From: Urechis unicinctus
Taxonomy: Eukaryota; Annelida; Polychaeta; Xenopneusta; Urechidae
NCBI GenBank assembly: GCA_034190875.2
Contig: CM067355.1
Coordinates: 32,725,756 to 32,789,755 of the forward strand
Reading direction: 5' to 3'
DNA length: 64,000 bases
The notes beneath the pieces are model-generated. The model made no database searches and was not told the DNA's origin. It saw nothing but the letters and a program-made list of their open reading frames with translations. Below are positions 1,006 through 15,540 of the stretch, piece by piece. The number at the start of each line of letters is the position of its first letter. The first letter of the stretch is position 1. The position numbers and the translations under genes were made by a program.

Positions 1006-1616
1006 AAGGTAAGTATAGGGTTTAACGGCACACCAACACTAGTGTGTTATATGGTGCCTACTTAAGGAGGGGTAAATACGAGTACGAAAGGATAAGAAGA
1101 AGTCAAAACTAGCTTAAAATGAAACCCATTAGTATTAATTGAATTATTTGAATTAGTTAATTTAAGATTAATGAGAATTGTATAATCTAAAACCTATAAA
1201 AAAAGTCCAATCTCTCTTATGAATCCAAGTATTATGGATGGATTCACCCTTTCAAACAATTCTCAAGGGTTTGAACCCGGAAGAAGCGATTTGGGATCAA
1301 AATCAGATCAGCACATTCGATGAGAATGTGCTTGACGTTGTAGGTACATTAACAAGGAATGCATTCAGGGATGGGCTCATCCCTTAGTAGAAAGGCATGA
1401 GTTGTATAGGTGTGTCCTATACGAGCGCGAGCAAGAATAACCTCCTCTCTTCTGCTCTGTCTGCAGCTGTGTGGCCACTCCCCAAGTTGGGGCTGAATTT
1501 CGTAAAGTTTGTTTGGGATGGATTCATCCCACTGGTCCTGCCATTTCTTTTTTAAAAAAATTGACGACCTGAGGTTTTAAGTCTGTAAAGGGAACTTTGA
1601 CCTCAGTCACATTGAA
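1006..1616 (-). pseudogene. LINE copy 1, 3' end: ORF2 C-terminus and 3' UTR (decayed)
   Basis: On the minus strand this matches the 3' end of the fuller LINE at 3611-9176. The start AAGGTAAGTATAGGG is the complement of its TTACC-type tail. Reading the minus strand gives the ORF2 C-terminal motif RARIGHTYTTHAFLL followed by a Cys-Cys-His-Cys segment (ECIPC ... KHILIEC). An in-frame stop lies inside the Cys/His motif, and the frame is lost after FFRVQTL. It is separated from the rest of the copy (2006-2870) by a short element inserted at 1617-2005. About 50 bp of LINE sequence near the junction is missing or unalignable. Confidence 0.8.
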
Positions 1617-2005
1617 GTAGGTAGGTAGGTATGGGGTTTAACGGCACACCAACACTCATGTGTTATATGGTCTCATGAAAGGTTAATAGATAAGATTGAC
1701 CTGATTAAGCAGCCGCCTTCTAGGATGTATGAAAATGGAGATGGAAAAGATTAAAATGGAAACGATTATCCTATGGCAAGTCACCACCAGCCGATTGACA
1801 GAAGCAGGCCATTCCTTCCTCTCGTCTAGGTGAAATCCGTGCCAGAGTAGTGTGTTGCAGATATAGCGCTCAAAAGAACCACTCCACTCAACCACCTGGA
1901 TCCCATTGTCCACCGACACGAGTCGCAACCCACGGCCAACAGGTTGCCCCCTATTAGTCGCCTCTTACGACATGCAGGAAGATACAGTGGGCCTATTCTA
2001 CCCCC
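1617..2005 (-). mobile_element. SINE-like element copy a, inserted in LINE copy 1
   Basis: Nearly complete copy of the window's short retroelement, oriented minus. On the plus strand it starts with a (GTAG)n simple repeat, which is its 3' tail. Then come the LINE-like 3' segment (GGGTTTAACGGCACACC) and the 5'-UTR-like body (GATTGACCTGATTAAGC, CTCTCGTCTAGG, TTAGTCGCCTCTTACGAC). It ends at TATTCTACCCCC and lacks the terminal GGACCCACAGGGGG. The flanks are two parts of one LINE copy, so it inserted after that LINE. I could not find a clear target-site duplication. Confidence 0.85.
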
Positions 2006-2870
2006 TCTGATTACCAGGGATACCAACATGGCTCGGTACCCATACAAACAAAATATCCTTGCCACGATCTGTCAATTGAGAATATAAAAGCACAATATTT
2101 AAAAGAAAAACATTACGGAAATTACTCCCTGTTATTGCCTCCATGGCAGACGGGGATTCGGAAAATATAACAAAACGGCTTTTACTTGATTGGGCAATAA
2201 GGCCCATTGCAATAGAAAGAGCTTTTAGCTCTGCATGGAAAATTGACAGTGGAGGTGGTAGCCTCATGTTAAAAATAGTTTTGCCCATAATGGCTTCAGC
2301 TCCAATTTTATTGTCCTCTTTCGAACCGTCTGTGTAAATGGCATCACGGTCAGAAAATTTATCTTTTATCTCTCTAAATTGGTGAAGGAAAAAATCAGGC
2401 TCATGAGATCCCTTCGTGTTGGCTGACAGCGATTTATCAACGGTTGAGGTTTTCAGTTGCCATGGGGGAGACCTTGGCACAGTCTCAACCGCCACGGTAT
2501 TCAAATTAGATCATGACCCATCCAGCGATTCTCTGATACGCAGACCAAACGAAGGGATAGCATTCGGCCTAATTTCATAAAAATGGATATTTCCAGGACT
2601 AAACACAACATCAAATGCCGGATTCAGGGGGTTTGACTTTAAGCGTGGGGCATACTGTATGGCAAGCTGCTCCCTTCGAACCCCAAGTGGAGCCTCGTTG
2701 ACTTCCACATGTAGACTGGGGATGGGAGAGGTTCTAAAAGCCTCGAGACAAAGCCTCAGAGCCTGGTTTTGGACTGTCTCCAATTCTCGTTTATATGAGC
2801 GACGGACAGAACCATAGATGAAACAGCCATAATCCAACTTGGAGCGCACTAGTGACCTGTAAAGCCGCAA
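2006..2870 (-). pseudogene. LINE copy 1: RT thumb/connection plus RNase H (broken)
   Basis: Minus-strand continuation of the LINE interrupted at 1617-2005. Upstream (2514-2870) is the post-catalytic RT region, starting RLYRSLVRSKLDYG. Downstream is an RNase H domain with IYTDGSKED and PSHVGIPGN. The two parts are in one frame, separated by a single TGA at 2511-2513. The third catalytic acidic residue is Glu (FSES, codon 2157-2159), where the related copy at 4040-4738 has Asp (FSDS). The last motif reads GNQRG, so the final Asp is lost. The copy is cut off at its 5' side by a (GAGT)n tract. It is non-functional on several counts. Confidence 0.85.
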
Positions 2871-3415: not shown

Positions 3416-3610
3416 TCCTCAGGAGGAGATTACCCTGACAGAAGTTAAGACGGCGATAAGGCAGATGAAGAAGAGAAAAGCTGCAAAACCAATTGAAATC
3501 ACACTGGAGATGGTACTAGATCTTGGAGAGAAAGAGGGATATCGTGGCTTCACAGAGTATTGTCAGCAATATGGAGAGAGAAGCGAATCCCAGATGACTG
3601 GCTAGAATCT
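3416..3610 (+). pseudogene. RTE-type LINE reverse transcriptase fragment, 5' part
   Basis: Plus-strand translation gives EEITLTEVKTAIRQMKKRKA. After a one-base frame change near 3540-3550 it continues as WLHRVLSAIWREKRIPDDW. This is the N-terminal part of RTE-clade reverse transcriptases (lysine-rich KKRKA stretch, then the IPDDW motif). Translation ends where the LINE at 3611 is inserted, and the same RT resumes at 9188. The fragment is dead: frame-shifted and split. Confidence 0.75.
3600..3610. repeat. Target-site duplication, left copy
   Basis: The 11-bp sequence GGCTAGAATCT is repeated exactly at 9177-9187. It flanks the LINE insertion and lies in the RTE coding sequence just after its IPDDW motif. 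Confidence 0.8.
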
Positions 3611-3809
3611 AAGGTAAGGTAAGGTAAGTATAGGGTTTAACGGCACACCAACACTAGTGTGTTATATGGTGCCTACTTAAGGAGGGGTATATACGAGTAC
3701 GAAAGGATAAGAAGTCAAGTTTACAACCAACTAAAAATTGCATTAATTGAATTGTATTAATTGAATTATATTAATTTGAACTATATTGAATCAATGAGAA
3801 TTGTATGAT
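3611..3809 (-). other. LINE 3' UTR with (TTACC)n tail
   Basis: Follows the ORF2 stop at 3810-3812. It holds a run of TTAATTGAAT-like repeats and then a terminal ~55-bp segment (plus strand: AAGTATAGGGTTTAACGG ... GTGTTATATGGTGCC) shared with nearly every short element in the window. The (TTACC)n tail sits at the element's 3' edge, next to the target-site duplication. Terminal segments of this kind are commonly recognised by the element's own RT; that role here is inference. Confidence 0.75.
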
Positions 3810-6800
3810 CTAAAATCTATAAAAAAGTCCAATTTCTCTTATGAATCCAAGTATCTTGGATGGATTCACCCTTTCAAATAATTCTGAAAGGGTTTGAACC
3901 CGAAAGAAGCGATTTCGGATCAAAATCAAATCAGCACATTCTATGAGAATGTGCTTGACGGTGTAGGCGCATTGACAAGGAATACATTCAGGGATGGGCT
4001 CATCCCTTAGTAGAAAGGCATGAGTTGTATAGGTGTGTCCTATACGAGCGCGAGCAAGAATGACCTCTTCTCTTCGGCTCTCTCTGCAGCTGTGTGGCCA
4101 CTCCCCAAGTTGAGGCTGGATTTCATAAAGTTTGTTTGGAATGGATTCATCCCACTAATCCTGCCATTTTTAAAAAGTTTGACGACCTGCGGTTTTAAGT
4201 CTGTAAAGGGAATCTTGATTTCAGACACTGGCTCGTGTAGGGCTTCTTTTGCAGTCCTATCGGCTCTTTCGTTGCCTGGGATACCTTTGTGACTGGGTAC
4301 CCAGACAAACTCAACATTTTTCCCCAGCATGGCTAAACGAGTAAGATTTTCTAAAATATCTACAACAATATGGCACGATAATAACTTATTCCCAATTGCC
4401 TCCAGGGCAGATAAAGAATCACTAAAAATTGTAAAATCCGCATTGGGATGGTGAGCAATAAGGCCCAATGCCATCCTTATTGCGGTAACTTCGGCTGTAA
4501 AAACAGATGCTGCACCAGGCAGTCTTTTCTTGTGGGCCTGAGGTCCGAACACGACTCCAGCGCCCACACGGTTTGCATCTTTGGATCCATCAGTATAAAT
4601 ATGTATCTTGTCTTTGTGATGTTCTTTTAATTCATTAAATTTCATCAAGAGGTCATTTGCATTTAATTTATCATATTTGGTAAGGGATGTGTCTATTGTT
4701 GGTGTGTTCAATTGCCAGGGTGGTGTTTCGGGAAGCAATAATTTTTATTGGATATGTTGTTTAGCGATTCTTGAATACGGAGCAATATTAGGTTTATTTT
4801 CTAAATTTGGTATTTGGATAGGCAGGGTGATCTGGATTGCTTTTTAGCGATTCTTGAATCTTCGGATGGATAGGCATTTCATTGAGGTGGAGGCTTTCAT
4901 GGCGAAATGCCCCAAGTAAACGATATGTCCAGTCGTTTTAAATAAGCCAAACGATGCAGCCATAGTCAAGCTTTGATCTTATCAAGGACCGGTAGAGCCT
5001 GAGCAGGACCTGCCTGTCAGCTCCCCAGTCCAGCTTGGACACTACTTTAAGAATATTCATTGCCTTGAGACATTTATTCCTGATGTAATTAATATGGATT
5101 TTTAAAGTTAAGTTTTGAATCAAATATGATACCTAAGAATTTGGTTTCTTCCACAACAGGGACGGGATTTTCATTGATGGTTAGTTCTGGGTCAGGGTGA
5201 AGGCCCCTTCTTTGACAAAAATGTACACAAACTGTTTTGTAGTGTAAAATTTGAAACCATTTTCATCTGCCCATTTCTGAATTTTTTGAAGGTTGATTTG
5301 TAGCTGGCGTTCTATGGTGGTCATACTGCTGGATCGGTAAGATATAAGGAAATCGTCTACATAAAGTGATTTTTCTATTTCAGGTTTAAGAACTTTTGTG
5401 ATGCTATTGATCTTTAAATTAAAAAGTGTGACAGAAAGAATGCTGCCCTGTGGGACCCCCATTTCCTGACCATGTTGGTCCGAAAGTGATGTCCCAATTC
5501 TTACCTTACCTTACCTATCATTTAAAAAATTTGTATAAATAGTGGCATATTACCTCGAAGACCAGCTTCTTGTAGATCTTTTAAAATCCCATATTTCCAT
5601 GTCGTGTCATATGCTTTCTCAAGATCGAAAAACACAGACACGACATGGTCCCCCTTTAAAAATGCATCCCTTATATAAGATTCTAACTTAACAAGGTTGT
5701 CTGTGGTACATTGGCCTTTTCTAAAGTCAGATTGATGTTTATTTATTATATTATTAGTTTCCAAGTACCACATAAGACGCTTGTTAACGATTCGCTCCAT
5801 GGTTTTACAGAGACAGCTCGTGAGAGCGATGGGCCTGTAGCTCGACGGGTTGGTTGGGTTTGTTCCGGACTTTGGGAGAGGGATGATGGTAGCCTCTCTC
5901 CATGAGTCCGGATATTCTCCACTGCTCCATATGTGATTGTATATGTCTAATAAGACATACAAGGACTCTTCTGGAAGATGTTTAAGTAGTTGGTAATGGA
6001 CATCGTCTGGTCCTACTGCAGTGTCCTTGCAGAGTTTCAAAGATTCTTTCAATTCTTCTAAAGTAAAAGGAACATTATAATTTTCTTCGTTGTTTGACCT
6101 AAAATTAAGTTTTGTTATTTCAGAAATCTGTTTATGTCTTTGAAACTTTTCAGTATAATTAGCAGTGGAATAATTCATGGTTATTGTGTCCGCTATGATG
6201 TTAGATATTTCTTGTTTGTTTTTTACTTCATTACCATCTGGTGTTAGAAGGTAAGAAGAAGTGGAAGGTGTTTTTTCCACTTATTTTGCGGACCATTTCC
6301 CATGTCTTTTTGATTGATGTTTAATTTTGATATATAAGTTTTCCATGAATTCTTTTTACTTTCTTTAACAACCCGCCGAGCTCTCGCTCTCACTGCCCTG
6401 AATGATGCCAGGTTTGCATGGGTTGGGTGAGTTTGAAATAACTTAAGGGCCCTTTTTCTGTGGTTGATGGCGTCCTGACAGTCTTGGTTAAACCATGGTT
6501 TTGGGATGCGCCTGGGCTTTGCCGAGGACTTCGGAATAGTTTTGGAGGCAATTTCAAGCAGTTTAGCACAAAATGTATCGATGTGTGTATCTCTCCCTTG
6601 CATCTTATCCCTGTGGATAGCCTCCCCACACAGAGATCCAAAGGAGGGCCAGTCTGCTTTATGCAGCTGACACTTTGGAGGTGACTCTGGTGGTAACGGA
6701 GGGTTTAGGTGGATAAGAATGGGGAAGTGGTCACTTCCACAGGTATCATCGACACCAACTTCCCATGCAAGGTCGAGAAACAAAGAAGGAGAAGAGAAAG

Positions 6801-7353
6801 AAAGATCTATTGCGGTGGGTGTGCCATAGCCTGGATAGATGTATGTATTTGAGCCGTCATTTAAAAGGCAGAGATTGTGAGAAATGAAGAAATCTTCAAC
6901 AATTTGGCCTTTTCCATCATCATATGTATTGCCCCATAAAGAGTTGTGGGCATTAAAATCACCCATGAGGAGAACTGGCTCTGGCAACTGGGCCACGATG
7001 TTGTCCAGTTCTCCTCGTGTAAAATTTTGGCTTGGCGGTAAGTAAAGGGAGCAAAGTGTGATGGACTTATTTAAGGTTATATTTACTGCTACTGCTTGAA
7101 GGTTTGTATTGAGTTCTATTTCTTTCTGGGGAATAAAATCCTTGATTAAAATGGACGAGCCGCCAGAAGCTCGTTCCCCAGTGCCTCCAAATTTATGGTA
7201 AGATTTATAGCCTTTCAAGCTATAGTTATTTTCCGCCTTCAGAAATGTTTCCTGAAGGCAGGCTGCAATACCATTATTTTTGTTGAGTAAAGTAATAAGT
7301 TCTTCATGATTATTCCGAAGTCCTCGGCAATTCCATTGTATAATGCCCGCCAT
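3810..7353 (-). pseudogene. LINE ORF2: endonuclease, reverse transcriptase, RNase H (disrupted)
   Basis: Begins at ATG 7353-7351. Endonuclease (7353 to about 6650): WNCRG at residues 7-11, QETF 34-37, GDFNAHN 131-137, AIDLS 181-185, SDHFPI 207-212, all intact. Reverse transcriptase (about 6250 to 5200): SSYRPIALTS, motif A FFDLEKAYD, motif B GVPQGSILS, motif C YVDDFL. RNase H (4738 to about 4200): D50, E83, D107, H150 and D160 of the local reading frame, all present. A C-terminal Cys/His motif (ECIPCQC ... KHILIEC) precedes the stop at 3810-3812. Breaks: frameshift near 6244-6280; frameshift in the T run at 5516-5525; in-frame TAA at 5511-5513; two compensating shifts between about 5205 and 5100; deletion around 4740-4940; frameshift near 4050-4066. 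Expected length is about 1,180 codons. It made nicks and copied RNA at the target in its active ancestor. Confidence 0.85.
5503..5516. repeat. TTACC microrepeat inside the RT coding region
   Basis: Three TTACC-type repeats lie within ORF2 between the residues FLNDR and VRIGT. On the sense strand they read GGTAAGGTAAGGTAAG and create an in-frame TAA. Their orientation is opposite to the element's own 3' tail. Confidence 0.7.
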
Positions 7354-8617
7354 TACCTATCAGGGGGTTTGGCGGGACGTTTGCTGCCATGGTGGACCTC
7401 AGTCCCCATGGCATTCCTAGGGCCGCAGGTTCCCTGGGCCACTACAGACCCAGGGTCCCGATTGACCCCTGATGGTGATGGTGTGTGTCTGCCATGGGGG
7501 ACCTCATCAGTCTCCATGGCAGACAATGGGCCATAGATGTTGGGCCCAACAAAAGAATCTGGGTTCTGAACCCTGATGAGTTTTGATTTTACTGACCGTG
7601 GGAGTTTAGATTTCTCATTGTATTTGTTTGCTGTTGTGTTCATTGACTTTTGGGGTAGTGGGGGGTGTTTGGTTTTGTTTTGTTCTGTTGGGGGATTGCT
7701 GGCTTTGAAAGGGGGTTGTTTCGGAGGGTGGTTTTCTGTTTGTGTGCTTATAGATTTGGTAATTTTATTAGGTGTTGCTGCAGTACTGGCATATGAAGGT
7801 ATGGAAGAAGTTGAATTTTGGCACTCTACTATTTTTCTCGCTTCAGGGAAAAAAGTTTTTGGGTGATGTGTAAAGTTTGGATTTGCTTTTCAGTTTGTCA
7901 TATGGGACAGCGTTTAGAGTATGCGGGATGAGCACCGGAGCAGTTTGCGAACTTGAATGGTGCTTTGCAGTCCTGCTCCCCATGCTCATCACCGCATTTG
8001 GGGCAAATTGGTGTTCTATTACATCTTGTTCGAAAGTGTCCATATTTCTGGCAATTGTGGCATCTTAAAGGATTTGGAATGAATGGTTAAACTTTTATGT
8101 TAAGGCCTGCTATTTTAATGTTGTTTGGAAGGTATGGACTATTGAAAGTAAGGATATGGGTGCCTGTGGGAATCTTTTCTCCGTTTTTGTTGATGAGCAC
8201 TTTGGCTACTTCACTGACGTTTTGATTTTTCAATTCCTTAAAAATTTCTTCCTCACTGCACTATTTTAATTCAAAAGATTTGATTACATCCTTGATGGTG
8301 TTCAGTGTTCGATGAGGGCTGAATTTGACATTGATATTGGCTATTTGTGTGGTCTGAAGAAGAAGTTTAGAATGAATTGGTTTGGAAGTTTCGACAAGAT
8401 AAAGACCAGATCTCAAAAGTTTTAGAGTTTTGGGAGTGCCTGCAACACCACAAATTCCTTTAAATAATACTATAAATGACACCTTTTCCAAACTTCCATC
8501 CGTCCTTTCAAGGACAAGAAATCTTTGCCAATTTTCTACTTGATTCAAATCATTTTCTTCAGTGTGCTTCCTTTTGTGGCCAGGAGGATAAACAGACATA
8601 ATAATAAAACAATTCAT
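7353..8617 (-). pseudogene. LINE ORF1: nucleic-acid-binding gag-like protein (disrupted)
   Basis: I place the start at the ATG 8617-8615 (MNCFIIMSVYPPG); an alternative is the ATG at 8599. An upstream in-frame extension to 8776 is probably 5' UTR. The N-terminal region (WQRFLVLERTDGS, GVAGTPKTLKLLRSG, VKFSPHRTLNTIKDVI) is typical of the ORF1/gag-like protein of jockey-type elements. Three zinc-knuckle-like motifs follow between about 8062 and 7904: CHNCQKYGHFRTRC (CX2CX4HX4C), CPKCGDEHGEQDC (CX2CX3HX4C) and CSGAHPAYSKRC. The C-terminal tail is rich in Ser, Thr, Pro and Asn. Breaks: stops at 8261-8263, 8087-8089 and 7898-7900 (probably a former CPIW Trp codon), and a frameshift near 7850-7860. 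The final frame ends in TAA 7355-7353, which overlaps the ORF2 ATG by one base. Expected length is about 420 codons; its role is binding the element's RNA. Confidence 0.85.
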
Positions 8618-9176
8618 CACCTGTGCTCCCAACCCGCCCCGGAGCCCAATAAAGGGACATCTTAAAGATGCCAGGGCTACGCATGTGATATACTCGTCCC
8701 CCATAAAAAGTGAGACAATACGTTCCCCATAGAGCCCAGACACTGGCAAGGCGCTGAGCTCGTAGAGGCGCACCATAACACCCTTAATGGAATCCGATTG
8801 ACCTGATTAAGCAGCCGCCTTCTGGGACTAGTGAAGCCAATGAAATAAGAAATGGTCCATGAAGTAAATGAATGTCATGAAGGAAGATGCCAAATGCATG
8901 TGATGGGTAGTCCCAGGGCACGACGCCACCAGTCGATAGGAATGGGCCAGGCCTACCCACCCTCTCGTCTAGGCGAAATCCGGGCCAAAGTGGTGTGTTG
9001 CAGATATAGCCCTCGCAAGGACCGCTCCGCTCAACCACCAGGATCCCATCTTCCTCCGACACGAGTCGCAACCCACGGCCAACAGGTTGCCCCCTATTAG
9101 TCGCCTCTTACGACATGCAGGAGGATACAGTGGGCCTATTCTACCCCCGGACCCACAGGGTGGGGGGGGGGGGGGG
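8618..9176 (-). promoter_or_regulatory. LINE 5' UTR, shared with the SINE-like family
   Basis: Minus-strand 5' end of the LINE. It starts with an oligo-C run, then GGGTCCGGGGGTAGAATAGG and GTCGTAAGAGGCGACTA, and runs to the GCTGCTTAATCAGGTCAATC block at about 8790-8820 and on to ORF1. The part from about 8789 to 9165 matches the body of all the short elements in this window. Because it lies inside one target-site duplication with the coding region, it belongs to the LINE rather than being a separate insertion. An internal promoter is expected here by analogy with other LINEs; I see no unambiguous promoter motif. Confidence 0.65.
8822..8916 (-). other. Predicted 9-bp hairpin in LINE 5' UTR
   Basis: Arms CTGGGACTA (8822-8830) and TAGTCCCAG (8908-8916) are perfectly complementary, with a 77-base loop. 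The short elements carry a different but equally complementary arm pair at the same position. Confidence 0.55.
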
Positions 9177-9178
9177 GG
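9162..9178. repeat. G17 homopolymer at the LINE 5' junction
   Basis: A run of 17 G on the plus strand (oligo-C at the element's 5' end). The last two belong to the target-site duplication. The run length may be uncertain in the assembly. Confidence 0.85.
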
Positions 9179-9187
9179 CTAGAATCT
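9177..9187. repeat. Target-site duplication, right copy
   Basis: GGCTAGAATCT, identical to 3600-3610. It marks the 5' boundary of the LINE insertion and the resumption of the RTE coding sequence. Confidence 0.8.
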
Positions 9188-9338
9188 TCAAGTACAAAGG
9201 TAACATCCACGAATGCGGCAAATACAGAGGAATCAAGCTACTATCTCAAATGATGAAGTTCTGGAAAGAATACTGGATGACAGAATTCGGAGATCGTGGC
9301 GCCGCAGCTGGGCGAGGAGCAATTCGGTTGCTGTGAAC
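9188..9338 (+). pseudogene. RTE-type LINE reverse transcriptase fragment, continuation
   Basis: Translation gives IFKYKGNIHECGKYRGIKLL and then, in a second frame, LERILDDRIR, and in a third, GEEQFG. This is the RTE-type RT segment that directly follows the IPDDW motif at 3595, so it is the other half of the element split by the LINE insertion. At least two frameshifts are present. It is cut off on the right by another short element starting at 9339. Confidence 0.75.
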
Positions 9339-9471
9339 AGTGAGTGAGTGGGTGAGTATAGGGTTTAACGGCACACCAACAAACACATGTTATATGATGC
9401 CAAGAAGGTTTATAGATACGATTGACCTGATTAAGCCGCCGCGTTCTAGGGTAAATTAAATGGAGATGGAT
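9339..9471 (-). mobile_element. SINE-like element copy d, truncated
   Basis: Has a (GTGA)n tail, GGGTTTAACGGCACACC and GATTGACCTGATTAAGC, then stops after TTAAATGGAGATGG where the next copy's tail begins. Only the 3' third is present. Confidence 0.8.
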
Positions 9472-9662
9472 AAAGGTAATGGTAAATATAGGGTTAAACG
9501 GCGCACCGAAAACTCATTATTTATATATTGCCAAGAAAGGTTAATAGATCCGATTGACCTGATTAAGCAGCTGCCTTCTAGGATAAATGACAATGGAGAT
9601 GGAAAAAATAAAATGGAAACGCTTATCCTAGGGCAAGTCACCACCAGCCGATTGGCTGGAAG
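9472..9662 (-). mobile_element. SINE-like element copy e, truncated by copy f
   Basis: A degenerate GGTAA-type tail, then GGGTTAAACGGCGCACC and the body up to CCGATTGGCTGGAAG, where copy f is inserted. The block GGTTAATAGATCCGATTGAC is a close match to the LINE 5' UTR sequence near 8780-8800. Confidence 0.8.
9650..9662. repeat. Target-site duplication of copy f, left
   Basis: GATTGGCTGGAAG, 13 bp, repeated exactly at 10068-10080. Confidence 0.85.
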
Positions 9663-10067
9663 GGTGAGTGAGTGAGAATAGGGTTTAACGGCACACCAAC
9701 ACGTATGTGTTATATGGTGCCAAAAAAGGTTAATAGATAAGATTGACCTGATTAAGCAGCCGCCTTCTAGGATAAATGAAAATGGAGATGGAAAAGTTAA
9801 AAATGGAAACGATTATCCTAGGGCCAGTCACCACAAGCCGATTGACTGGACCAGGCCATTCCAGCCTCCCGTCCAGGCGAAATCCGGGCCAGAGTGGTAT
9901 GTTGCAGATATGGCCCTCAAAAGAGCCACTCCACTCAACCACCAGGATCCCATTGTCCACCGACACGAGTCGCAACCCACGGCCAACAGGTTGCCCCCTA
10001 TTAGTCGCCTCTTACGACATGCAGAAGGATACAGTGGACCTATTCTACCCCCGGACCCACAGGGGGA
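9663..10067 (-). mobile_element. SINE-like element copy f, complete reference copy
   Basis: A 405-bp element with exact 13-bp target-site duplications. Plus-strand order: (GTGA)n tail, AATAGGGTTTAACGGC, the ATGTGTTATATGGTGCC block shared with the LINE 3' end, GATTGACCTGATTAAGC, hairpin arms, CCGGGCCAGAGTGG, TTAGTCGCCTCTTACGAC, and CCCGGACCCACAGGGGGA. Its true 3' end is at the left, because the tail lies there. No ORF of its own. It best defines the family in this window: about 55 bp from the LINE 3' end and about 330 bp from the LINE 5' UTR. Confidence 0.9.
9767..9821 (-). other. Predicted 9-bp hairpin in SINE-like copy f
   Basis: Arms CTAGGATAA (9767-9775) and TTATCCTAG (9813-9821) are perfectly complementary, with a 37-base loop. 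It lies at the position equivalent to the LINE 5' UTR hairpin, whose arms differ in sequence. Confidence 0.55.
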
Positions 10068-10080
10068 GATTGGCTGGAAG
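10068..10080. repeat. Target-site duplication of copy f, right
   Basis: GATTGGCTGGAAG, identical to 9650-9662. Confidence 0.85.
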
Positions 10081-10141
10081 GTAAGGTAAGTATAGGGTTC
10101 AACGGCACACCAACATTCATGTGTTATATGGTGCCAAGAAA
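10081..10141 (-). mobile_element. SINE-like 3'-end fragment (copy g)
   Basis: Only the GTAAGGTAAG tail and the ~45-bp LINE-like 3' segment. It is followed at once by the same segment in copy h, giving a ~61-bp tandem duplication of the 3' end. This is either a very short 5'-truncated insertion or a replication duplication. Confidence 0.75.
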
Positions 10142-10461: not shown

Positions 10462-13400
10462 ACATGTCACCACGGAAGTTGCTGCCAGACTTACACAACC
10501 AGTTCAAATCACAACGTAAGCAGCTGCAAGATATACTTCGAAGGCGCATGTCACACCTGAAGAATTGGAATTACGTCAACAGCACCTGCGCCACAGAAAT
10601 GCTAACAACAAATGTCATAGTGTAAACATCACCGTAATCAGTAAAATGAACAGAACATGGCACAACGTGAGCTCTTGGGTTACGTGAACAGCACAAGTCA
10701 CAACAGTAGCTGTCACAATCAAGCTACCAGCAAATGTCATACCGTAATCAGCTGAGTTAAATGAAAAGCACATTGCACAACATAAGCTCTTGGGTTACGC
10801 AACCAGCACATGTCACAACAGTAGCTGTCACAGTCAAGCTAACAGCACTTGTCACAACATAAACGGCTGTGGCACGTAAACAGCACATGTCGCAAAGCAA
10901 GCTACTGAGCTACGTAACCAGCACATTGCACAACGTAAGCTCTTGGGTTACGCAACCAGCACATGTCACAACAGTAGCTGTCACAGTCAAGCTAACAGCA
11001 CTTGTCACAACATAAACGGCTGTGACACGTAAACAGCACATGACGCAACGCTAGCTACTGAGCTACGTAAACAGCACATGTCACAACAGAAGCTGTCACA
11101 GTCAAGCTAACAGCAAAGGCCATAACATAGACAGCTGAGTTCAATACAAAGCACATGTAACAACGTAAGCTCATGGATTACGTATCAGCTCATCCCACAA
11201 CATAAACTGTTACAGTCAAGCTAACAGCAAATATCACAACGAAAGTAGCTGAGGCACGTAAACAGCACATGTCGCAATGCAAGCTACTGAGCTACGTAAA
11301 CAGCACATTGCACAACGTAAGCTCCTGGGTTACGCAACCAGCACATGTCACAACAGTAGCTGTCACAGTCAAGCTAACAGCACTTGTCACAACATTAACG
11401 GCTGTGGCACGTAAACAGCACATGTCGCAACGCTAGCTACTGAGCTACGTAAACAGCACATGTCACAACAGAAGCTGTCACAGTCAAGCTAACAGCAAAG
11501 GCCATAACATAGGCAGATGAGTTCAATACACAGCACATGTCACAACGTAAGCTCATGGATTACGTATCAGCTCATCTCACAACATAAACTGTCACAGTCA
11601 AGCTAACAGCAAATATCACAACGAAAGTAGCTGAGGCACGTAAACAGCACATGTCGCAACGCAAGCTACTGAGCTACGAAAACAGCACATTGCACAACGT
11701 AAGCTCTTGGGTTACGAAACCAGCACATGTCACAACAGTAGCTGTCACAATCAAGCTAACAGCACTTGTCACAACATAAACGGCTGTGGCACGTAAACAG
11801 CACATGTCGCAATGCAAGCCACTGAGCTACGAAAACAGCACATTGCACAACTTAAGCTCTTGGGTTACGAAACCAGCACATGTCACAACAGTAGCTGTCA
11901 CAGTCAAGCTAACAGCACTTGTCACAACATAAACGGCTGTGGCACGTAAAACAGCACATGTCGCAACGCAAGCTACTGAGCTACGTAACCAGCACATTGC
12001 ACAACGTAAGCTCTTGGGTTACGCAACCAGCACATCATAAAGGAACAACAGTAGCTGTCACAGTCAAGCTAACAGCACTTGTCACAACATAAACGGCTGT
12101 GACACGTAAACAGCACATGACGCAACGCTAGCTACTGAGCTACGTAAACAGCACATGTCACAACAGAAGCTGTCACAGTCAAGCTAACAGCAAAGGCCAT
12201 AACATAGGCAGCTGAGTTCAATACACAGCACATGTCACAACGTAAGCTCATGGATTACGTATCAGCTCATCTCACAACATAAACTGTCACAGTCAAGCTA
12301 ACAGCAAATATCACAACGAAAGTAGCTGAGGCACGTAAACAGCACATGTCGCAACGCAAGCTACTGAGCTACGAAAACAGCACATTGCACAACGTAAGCT
12401 CTTGGGTTACGAAACCAGCACATGTCGCAACAGTAGCTGTCACAATCAAGCTAACAGCACTTGTCACAACATAAACGGCTGTGGCACGTAAACAGCACAT
12501 GTCGCAATGCAAGCTACTGAGCTACGAAAACAGCACATTGCACAACTTAAGCTCTTGGGTTACGAAACCAGCACATGTCACAACAGTAGCTCTCACAGTC
12601 AAGCTAACAGCACTTGTCACAACATAAACGGCTGTGGCACGTAAACAGCACATGTCGCAACGCAAGCTACTGAGCTACGTAACCAGCACATTGCACAACG
12701 TAAGCTCTTGGGTTACGCAACCAGCACATGTCACAACAGTAGCTGTCACAGTCAAGCTAACAGCACTTGTCACAACATAAACGGCTGTGGCACGTAAACA
12801 GCACATGACGCAACGCTAGCTACTGAGCTACGTAAACAGCACATGTCACAACAGAAGCTGTCACAGTCAAGCTAACAGCAAAGGCCATAACATAGGCAGC
12901 TGAGTTCAATACAAAGCACATGTAACAACGTAAGCTCATGGATTACGTATCAGCTCATCCCACAACATAAACTGTCACAGTCAAGCTAACAGCAAATATC
13001 ACAACGAAAGTAGCTGAGGCACGTAAACAGCACATGTCGCAATGCAAGCTACTGAGCTACGTAAACAGCACATTGCACAACGTAAGCTCTTGGGTTACGA
13101 AACCAGCACATGTCACAACAGTAGCTGTCACAATCAAGCTAACAGCACTTGTCACAACATAAACGGCTGTGGCACGTAAACAGCACATGTCGCAACGCAA
13201 GCTACTGAGCTACGTAACCAGCACATCGCACAACGTAAGCTCTTGGGTTACGCAACCAGCACATGTCACAACAGTAGCTGTCACAGTCAAGCTAACAGCA
13301 CTTGTCACAACATAAACGGCTGTGGCACGTAAACAGCACATGACGCAACGCTAGCTACTGAGCTACGTAAACAGCGCATGTCACAACAGAAGCTGTCACA

Positions 13401-15540
13401 GTCAAGCTAACAGCAAAGGCCATAACATAGGCAGCTGAGTTCAATACAAAGCACATGTCACAACGTAAGCTCATGGATTACGTATCAGCTCATCTCACAA
13501 CATAAACTGTCACAGTCAAGCTAACAGCAAATATCACAACGAAAGTAGCTGAGGCACGTAAACAGCACATGTCGCAACGCAAGCTACTGAGCTACGAAAA
13601 CAGCACATTGCACAACGTAAGCTCTTGGGTTACGAACCAGCACATGTCACAACAGTAGCTGTCACAGTCAAGCTAACAGCACTTGTCACAACATAAACGG
13701 CTGTGGCACGTAAACAGCACATGTCGCAACGCAAGCTACTGAGCTACGAAAACAGCACATTGCACAACGTAAGCTCTTGGGTTACGAAACCAGCACATGT
13801 CACAACAGTAGCTGTCACAATCAAGCTAACAGCACTTGTCACAACATAAACGGATGTGGCACGTAAACAGCACATGTCGCAACACAAGCTACTGAGCTAC
13901 GTAAACAGCACATGTCACAACAGAAGCTGTCACAATCAAGCTAACAGCAAAGGCCTTAACATAGGCAGATGAGTTCAATACACAGCACATGTCACAACGT
14001 AAGCTCATGGATTACGTATCAGCTCATCTCACAACATAAACTGTCACAGTCAAGCTAACAGCAAATATCACAACGAAAGAAGCTGAGGCACGTAAACAGC
14101 ACATGTCGCAACGCAAGCTACTGAGCTACGAAAACAGCACATTGCACAACGTAAGCTCTTGGGTTACGAACCAGCACATGTCACAACAGTAGCTGTCACA
14201 ATCAAGCTAACAGCACTTGTCACAACATAAACGGCTGTGGCACGTAAACAGCACATGTCGCAATGCAAGCTACTGAGCTACGAAAACAGCACATTGCAGA
14301 ACTTAAGCTCTTGGGTTACGAAACCAGCACATGTCACAACAGTAGCTGTCACAGTCAAGCTAACAGCACTTGTCACAACATAAACGGCTGTGGCACGTAA
14401 ACAGCACATGTCGCAACGCAAGCTACTGAGCTACGTAAACAGCACATTGCACAACGTAAGCTCTTGGGTTACGAAACCAGCACATGTCACAACAGTAGCT
14501 GTCACAATCAAGCTAACAGCACTTGTCACAACATAAACGGCTGTGGCACGTAAACAGCACATGTCGCAACACAAGCTACTGAGCTACGTAAACAGCACAT
14601 TGCACAACGTAAGCTCTTGGGTTACGCAACCAACACATGTCACAACAGTAGCTGTCACAATCAAGCTAACAGCACTTGTCAAAACATAAACGGCTGTGGC
14701 ACGTAAACAGCACATGTCGCAACGCAAGCTACTGAGCTACGTAAACAGCACATTGCACAACGTAAGCTCTTGGGTTACGAAACCAGCACATGTCACAACA
14801 GTAGCTGTCACAATCAAGCTAACAGCACTTGTCACAACATAAACGGCTGTGGCACGTAAACAGCACATGTCGCAACGGAAGCTACTGAGTTACGTAAACA
14901 GCACATTGCACAACGTAAGCTCTTGGGTTACGCAACCAGCACATGTCACAACAGTAGCTGTCACAGTAAAGCTAACAGCACTTGTCAAAACATAAACGGC
15001 TTTGGCACGTAAACAGCACATGTCGCAACGCAAGCTACTGAGCTACGTAAACAGCACATTGCACAACGTAAGCTCTTGGGTTACGCAACCAACACATGTC
15101 ACAACAGTAGCTGTCACGGTAAAGCTAACAGCACTTGTCACAACATAAACGGCTGTGGCACGTAAACAGCACATGTCGCAACGCAAGCTACTGAGCTACG
15201 AAAACAGCACATTGCACAACGTAAGCTCTTGGGTTACGCAACCAACACATGTCACAACAGTAGCTGTCACAGTCAAGCTAACAACACTTGTCACAACATA
15301 AACGGCTGTGGCACGTAAACAGCACGTGTCACGCGCGAGCTCTTGGGTTACATAAACAGCATATGACACACAAGCAGCCGGCTTAGTCAAGCTAACAGAA
15401 AATAGAGTTCAATTAGCAGCAAAGCGTAAGCTCTTGAATATGTAAACAGCACATGTCACCTCGTAAGCTCGTGGTCTTCGTATACAGCACATGTCACAAC
15501 AGAAGCCGTCAGAGCTGTGAAGACAGCATATGTCAGAAGG
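10462..15540. repeat. 38-bp-based satellite array with 153/229-bp higher-order structure
   Basis: The basic unit is about 38 bp, for example starting ACAGCACATGTCACAACG and ending TACGTAA. Four units (38+38+39+38) make a 153-bp block. A further six-unit (229-bp) segment carrying AAGGCCATAACATAGGC and TATCAGCTCATCTCACAAC alternates with it. Measured from GCTCTTGGGTTACG (or its GCTCC variant) starting at 10786, spacings are 153, 382, 382, 153, 154, 389, 152, 153, 382, 153, 382, 152, 382, 152, then six intervals of 153. The first ~150 bp and last ~250 bp are degenerate. No plausible coding frame is present. Confidence 0.9.

Follow-up and report, generated by a model that had tools for sequence, protein, structure and literature searches.

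A short SINE-like element of Urechis unicinctus that probably arose by internal deletion from I-type LINEs

Short internally deleted elements (SIDEs) are derivatives of long interspersed nuclear elements (LINEs) in which both LINE ends are kept and the middle, with its open reading frames (ORFs), is missing. We describe here an abundant element with this anatomy, resembling a short interspersed nuclear element (SINE), in the annelid Urechis unicinctus. It was found in a stretch of 64,000 nt (assembly GCA_034190875.2, contig CM067355.1, positions 32,725,756 to 32,789,755 of the forward strand), called the window below, close to a full-length LINE, LINE A, both of whose ends it matches.

Several systems of this kind have been described. 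The R2 and R2/R1 SIDEs of Drosophila are presented in PMC3414825 with the same join of LINE 5′ and 3′ ends, with mobilisation in trans and as distinct from SINEs transcribed by RNA polymerase III (pol III); Persaeus of Lepidoptera, derived from the CR1 LINE Zenon, follows the same plan according to PMC6740152. The short element of Urechis differs from both in its apparent I-type parent with RNase H, in that no hepatitis delta virus (HDV)-like ribozyme was detected, and in a 5′ module that two or more deep LINE families have in common. Bipartite non-autonomous derivatives of RTE elements, and the SINEs built from them (in hagfish and others), also consist of LINE 5′ and 3′ parts without the middle (PMC7245038); there, however, the parent is an RTE element and not an I-type LINE, and the SINEs are said to gain tRNA, 5S or 7SL heads, none of which was seen on the short element. 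TbRIME and Ag-Sponge are reported as further internally deleted LINE derivatives (PMC6740152, PMC3414825), a likeness of description and not of sequence; TbRIME has L1Tc ribozyme similarity as given in PMC3414825, for which no counterpart was found in the short element.

On SINE bodies more generally, PMC6887750 describes the origin of most as unknown and gives a LINE origin as a proposal, while the idea that LINE derivatives reduced to their 5′ and 3′ regions were a source of such bodies is cited as a hypothesis in PMC8010984. I-superfamily LINEs are reported to be few in neritimorph snails and abundant in other gastropods (PMC11203168).

The composition of the short element is seen best in copy f (Table 1). 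Its nt 10-59 match the 3′ end of LINE A (3624-3673) with 90% identity, nt 79-110 match the 5′ untranslated region (UTR) of LINE A at 8796-8827 (97%) and nt 154-402 match the same UTR at 8911-9160 (87.6%, E 5e-86). Copy f is, in other words, a LINE 5′ end (~330 nt) fused to the last ~50-60 nt of a LINE; the first-pass annotation of this DNA had described it in this way, with correct coordinates and motifs. Both LINE ends are homologous and the ORF-bearing middle is missing, as in SIDEs. In our preferred reading, to which we give a probability of about two in three, the short element descends from I-type LINEs by loss of the internal part, its source being other than LINE A itself, and as a non-autonomous element it is mobilised in trans.

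Such a history would have begun with an internal deletion in an I-type LINE, by which the middle was lost. The 5′-terminal ~330 nt would have been kept as a promoter and perhaps for another conserved 5′ function, and the 3′-terminal hairpin and tail for recognition by the LINE reverse transcriptase (RT). Transcription of the short element would then start at its own 5′ end, presumably by RNA polymerase II from the LINE promoter, and target-primed reverse transcription in trans would turn its RNA into new copies. For the role of the 5′ domain a promoter would be our first choice, with translation or binding of the RT as other candidates.

Genome-wide, the best 40 of 5136 first-look candidates for the short element were scored, and nearly all were 97-99% identical to copy f. 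The copies start with a C run followed by TGTGGGTCC and end with CCCTAT (in some TCCTAT) followed by TCTCACTCAC. A script found target-site duplications (TSDs) of 11-25 nt, no more than 3 nt from the element start, in 26 of 30 excised loci; as to exceptions, the TSD of L012 was set by eye (the script chose a longer match), that of L026 is offset by 8 nt, and L007 and L030 have none. Loci L004 and L010 have the same flanks (a duplication), hence they are not independent. Together with the two 5′-truncated copies in the window, at 9344 and 9488, these TSDs are signatures of target-primed reverse transcription, though not a direct test of it. Exact patterns gave 863 occurrences in the genome for a 33-mer of the module, 508 for a 23-mer at the short-family junction and 156 for a 21-mer at the corresponding position of LINE A, with no occurrence of the backward pattern used as control in each case. 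A tandem array including the short element was observed at G000:C2:61269731-61278031 (six junctions, spacing of ~1655 nt).

LINE A is a complete insertion with broken ORFs. The sequence GCTAGAATCT is present exactly twice in the window, on the two sides of LINE A, so that a single TSD encloses the 5′ part along with ORF1 and ORF2. The sequence comparison within the window also found the LINE A 5′ UTR to be free of the 3′ block of the short element. On both counts the first-pass annotation was right. The ORF1 CCHC knuckle scored 16.6 bits, under the Pfam cut-off of 20.8; with this sub-threshold knuckle, and with endonuclease (EN), RT and RNase H in ORF2, the domain set fits the I superfamily. 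The I-type label of LINE A thus stands for Pfam domain content and not for a clade (e.g. Nimbus).

Does the 5′ module belong to LINE A, or did a short element land by chance at its 5′ edge and leave the segment 8789-9165? To collect copies of LINE A we used EN/ORF1 sequence as the query, so that the kind of UTR could not influence which copies were picked; of 283 first-look candidates the 40 best were taken, namely the window copy and 39 others. All LINE samples used here are biased to young, close copies, since the best-scoring candidates alone were taken. In 32 of the 39 copies the module was present at the LINE 5′ end, at or within 9 nt of the module start. Among the remaining seven, one (no. 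7) has a truncated UTR and six (nos. 17, 24, 27, 35, 37 and 38) do not have the module as 5′ end, although no. 24 shows a weak 64-nt module match and no. 27 carries a whole short element there; no alternative 5′ end common to these exceptions was found. A script recovered both ends in 24 copies (of the 39, 7 were without a 5′ start and 8 without a 3′ end); 18 of the 24 have a TSD of 9-16 bp and six, no. 27 included, have none.

As 32 of 39 copies chosen by EN/ORF1 carry the module, and the exceptions have no common 5′ end, the 5′ module is LINE A's own part and not a one-off insertion, just as had been proposed. Full-length LINEs with mostly unrelated 5′ UTRs, the finding that was to speak against this, were not what we saw among the best 40 of 283 candidates. 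We rejected the chance insertion: one TSD encloses the whole LINE unit, the same 5′ end recurs on the other copies, and with nothing found in its favour its probability is close to nil. Of these 39 copies, 23 lie on contig C16, which makes up 59.5 Mb of the 1190-Mb genome; C16 may be a sex chromosome, or may recombine little.

The sequences flanking L017 and L027, two copies of the short element, contain a LINE of a second family, with an ORF1 start that is 36-41% identical to LINE A at the amino acid level. Pieces recovered by ORF1 (type C) and by RNase H (type B) were compared with LINE A. Over the ORF1 pieces of the second family the amino acid identity to LINE A was 36-58%; a translated comparison of A with B/C gave 29-51% for ORF1 pieces, 47-62% for EN, 52-77% for RT and 44% for RNase H. 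ORF1 was also used to pick LINE C copies: the best 40 of 395 candidates were scored and 20 of these taken, of which 16 open with the module and the other four have no recognisable 5′ start. Upstream of B-type RNase H matches (best 40 of 658 candidates) the module was present in 6 of 11 places, in four of them running into a C-type UTR; five places had no module match, L148 is weak (~80%) and L144 ends before the diagnostic C stretch. Because four B-type places continue from the module into the C-type UTR, the two types are taken here as a single family, which they presumably are.

The ends of these deeply separate LINEs are very much alike. The consensus sequences of LINE A and LINE C agree at 104/104 positions in nt 1-104 of the module, at 79/81 in nt 105-185 and at 51/65 in nt 186-250. 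Among the B-type 3′ regions sampled, six of eight have the shared end and seven of eight could be aligned to LINE A, with 83-94% identity of the 3′ UTRs over 160-226 aligned columns. Since a UTR that looks unconstrained is shared while the coding sequence is deeply diverged, the simplest reading would be that ends were exchanged between LINE families; alternatively, the UTRs could be under strong selection. Within the window, positions 1009-2990 hold three pieces end to end: a LINE A-like 3′ end, a short element in which other sequence stands in place of the first ~12 nt, and a B/C fragment. This arrangement could be a nested insertion or a recombinant.

Mobility of 5′ ends is what a second explanation builds on: a SINE body that already existed could have become the 5′ UTR of LINEs, captured when reverse transcription, on reaching the 5′ end of a LINE RNA, jumped onto a SINE RNA as its next template; the module would then have spread between families. 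The agreement of the A and C consensus sequences at 183/185 positions of nt 1-185, set against 36-58% identity of ORF1 pieces, gives the impression that 5′ ends do move between LINEs, and jumps of R2 onto other RNAs are among the findings reported in PMC3414825. What speaks against a captured SINE is, to begin with, that no pol III head was seen. The best pair of A and B boxes in the short element was equalled by 139 of 500 shuffles; no tRNA gene was found in the window; Rfam gave no family above chance in 8500-10100 (three matches, E 6.9-9.2, none of them a ribozyme) and no HDV-like ribozyme at the LINE A 5′ end. A tRNA-derived or canonical pol III SINE was therefore ruled out on sequence, by box scores at shuffle level, no tRNA gene in the window and no Rfam match. 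Runs of four or more T upstream of the 3′ block, within the body, are present in all 30 short copies; with boxes no better than in shuffles, this makes pol III transcription of the short element unlikely.

An outgroup was obtained from a scan of prokaryotic genomes for the module pattern, whose one match was a 5′ module in scaffold 3 of the Solemya velum gill symbiont (NZ_JRAA01000003.1). There the module is followed by a recognisable LINE 5′ UTR and by an ORF1 ~40-42% identical to those of A and C; ORF2 is an open frame of 1238 amino acids with EN, RT and RNase H, and the 3′ motif, judged by eye, is similar (TTAAACCC plus a pentamer tail). This LINE (L180:6900-8000 and L198:1-5050; ~518.9-525 kb) has bacterial genes to its left, for asparagine synthase, sirohaem synthase and a DsrE-like protein. 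We infer a bivalve origin, either as host DNA in the assembly (a chimera) or by transfer. In this record, too, the module precedes LINE ORFs, a second point against SINE capture.

Compared with the LINE consensus sequences, the short-element consensus agrees with A and with C at 102/104 positions each in nt 1-104, and at 69/81 and 71/81, respectively, in nt 105-185. Further on the values for A and C are 51/65 and 60/65 in nt 186-250, and 26/30 and 24/28 in nt 301-330; the 28-nt stretch AGAAGGCGGCTGCTTAATCAGGTCAATC of the short element is identical in LINE A and has small gaps in LINE C (by eye). By these consensus sequences the short element is a mosaic, nearer to C in nt 186-250 and nearer to A in AGAAGGCGGCTGCTTAATCAGGTCAATC.

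A tree of the 5′ part alone was built (the 3′ block is ~55 nt long and nearly invariant) from 82 distinct sequences, 21 short, 36 A, 18 C and 7 unclassified, with the LINE of the Solemya record as outgroup; coverage of nt 12-245 was required and duplicates were merged. In the nt 1-250 tree rooted in this way all 36 LINE A sequences (support 95) stand outside, the 18 C sequences group with two unclassified ones (92), and the short family forms a clade of 21 plus four unclassified sequences (99), joined with C at a support of 80. The short clade contains no sequence assigned to LINE A or C, which also argues against capture of a SINE by LINEs. Nesting of the short family within LINE lineages had been expected; in this tree the family stands beside C, not inside A.

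LINE A as the direct parent was rejected by the same placement together with the consensus comparison, in which nt 186-250 are nearer to C. What remains of the original proposal of a deleted derivative is that both ends were kept and that deletion is the best model; a parent in the LINE A family does not. The source is best read as an ancestor of families A and C, or as a mosaic between them. At 13 sites the short element differs from A and C where these two agree; the LINE of the Solemya record has the A/C state at nine of them, the short state at two and neither at two (binomial p 0.065). These site states favour, without proving, the direction from LINE to short element, and the nine-to-two agreement of the outgroup with the LINEs is a further point against SINE capture. 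The latter had been named from the start as the alternative; we find it less likely than deletion, and on the whole rather improbable.

Several observations weigh against the preferred derivation by deletion from a LINE related to A and C. The four unclassified sequences sit in the short clade; the union of the short family with C has moderate support (80), with a long outgroup branch; a tree of nt 1-185 leaves A, C and the short family unseparated, and one of nt 186-250 is poorly supported. Among the LINEs found, none has a module as near to the short family as short copies are to each other. The homology shared by A, C and the short element ends at GGTCAATC, near the start of the short 3′ block, that is, near a boundary between SINE body and tail, and a captured cassette would give the same picture. 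Finally, young short copies have TCTCACTCAC tails, whereas LINE A and LINE B carry ACTTACCTTACC-like tails in the copies seen; because of this difference, neither LINE A nor B need be the present driver of the short copies.

The SIDE plan as such is already known; what is unusual here is the highly conserved, apparently mobile 5′ domain. Over nt 9-131 of the module (123 nt) LINE A and the LINE of the Solemya record are 87.8% identical, whereas in their coding regions most translated pieces have identities of 39-65% and no nucleotide match exceeds 66%. A block so much more alike than the genes behind it, acting as a unit across element types, could also suggest a third source, such as a host promoter or a structured RNA, from which LINEs and the short element acquired the module separately, with selection keeping it in place. 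Rfam gave no match beyond chance, however, and the shared block downstream and the shared 3′ end would be explained more simply by descent from LINEs; we regard a third source as improbable, more so than the capture of a SINE.

One could speculate that I-type LINEs of molluscs, and perhaps of other animals, have in their first ~120-130 nt a functional 5′-terminal domain, which passes between families whose proteins are about half different; the apparent conserved domain of the SINE-like element would then be a LINE domain kept by a deleted derivative. We offer this tentatively, as a proposal with the odds against it. The conserved central domains and highly conserved domains (HCDs) of SINEs are likewise conserved blocks within a SINE-like element, and similar blocks occur in gastropod SINEs. 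If the proposal is true, SINE conserved domains would gain a concrete origin, namely LINE 5′ ends selected for mobilisation. Both halves of the short element can be traced to LINEs, its conserved part being a LINE 5′ end common to families with proteins ~36-77% identical by piece; thus the idea of a LINE origin of SINE bodies becomes testable. The findings also suggest that LINE ends move between families while the genes stay separate.

The 3′ hairpin was predicted, with modest scores, in LINE A (z -1.4) and in copy f (z -2.3). The predicted fold of the 5′ domain was better than in shuffles for the window copy of LINE A (z -2.9) and less markedly so for copy f (z -1.3); among four sequences a two-sided change was seen in 1 of 40 predicted pairs. 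An 18-mer had no match in viral contigs; a 15-mer matched 16 of them, none of which was confirmed as module by blastn, and searching there with ORF2 brought up no relative. A literature search for the exact motif gave no match.

Table 1. Positions of LINE-derived and short-element features in the window
Feature	Position	Strand	Remarks
LINE A, full-length copy	3611..9177	(-)	broken ORFs; 5′ end 9177, 3′ tail (CTTAC)n ending 3611
TSD GCTAGAATCT, 3′ side of LINE A	3601..3610	n/a	
TSD GCTAGAATCT, 5′ side of LINE A	9178..9187	n/a	edge ambiguous (G run)
LINE A 5′ module, common with short element	8796..9160	(-)	from CCCTGTGGG (9160) to GGTCAATC (8796)
Module nt 1-104	9057..9160	(-)	consensus LINE A = LINE C 104/104; short element 102/104
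LINE A ORF1 region (broken)	7353..8599	(-)	zinc knuckle 7898-8086
LINE A ORF2 endonuclease, Exo_endo_phos_2	6244..7353	(-)	Pfam match
LINE A ORF2 reverse transcriptase	5181..6280	(-)	Pfam match; two pieces, 5522-6280 and 5181-5510
LINE A ORF2 RNase H and C terminus	4040..4744	(-)	Pfam match
LINE A 3′-terminal block, common with short element	3624..3673	(-)	predicted hairpin
Short element copy f, full length	9663..10067	(-)	
Copy f 3′-terminal LINE-derived block	9672..9721	(-)	predicted hairpin, then TCTCACTCAC tail
Short element copy without 5′ half	9488..9660	(-)	5′-truncated
Short element copy without 5′ half	9344..9479	(-)	5′-truncated
Short element copy	1631..2005	(-)	91% identical to f; first ~12 nt replaced
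RNase H fragment of second LINE family (B/C)	2001..2510	(-)	42% amino acid identity to LINE A
LINE 3′ end adjoining the B/C fragment	1009..1625	(-)	88% nucleotide identity to LINE A

As to the surroundings, the insertion site of LINE A (flanks 3421-3610 and 9188-9330) resembles a pseudogene of an RTE-type reverse transcriptase, whose fragment resumes across the insertion (by eye, with a frame shift). A large satellite array, close to the cluster of short elements, occupies positions 10644-15330 of the window; its periods are 115, 153 and 382 nt.
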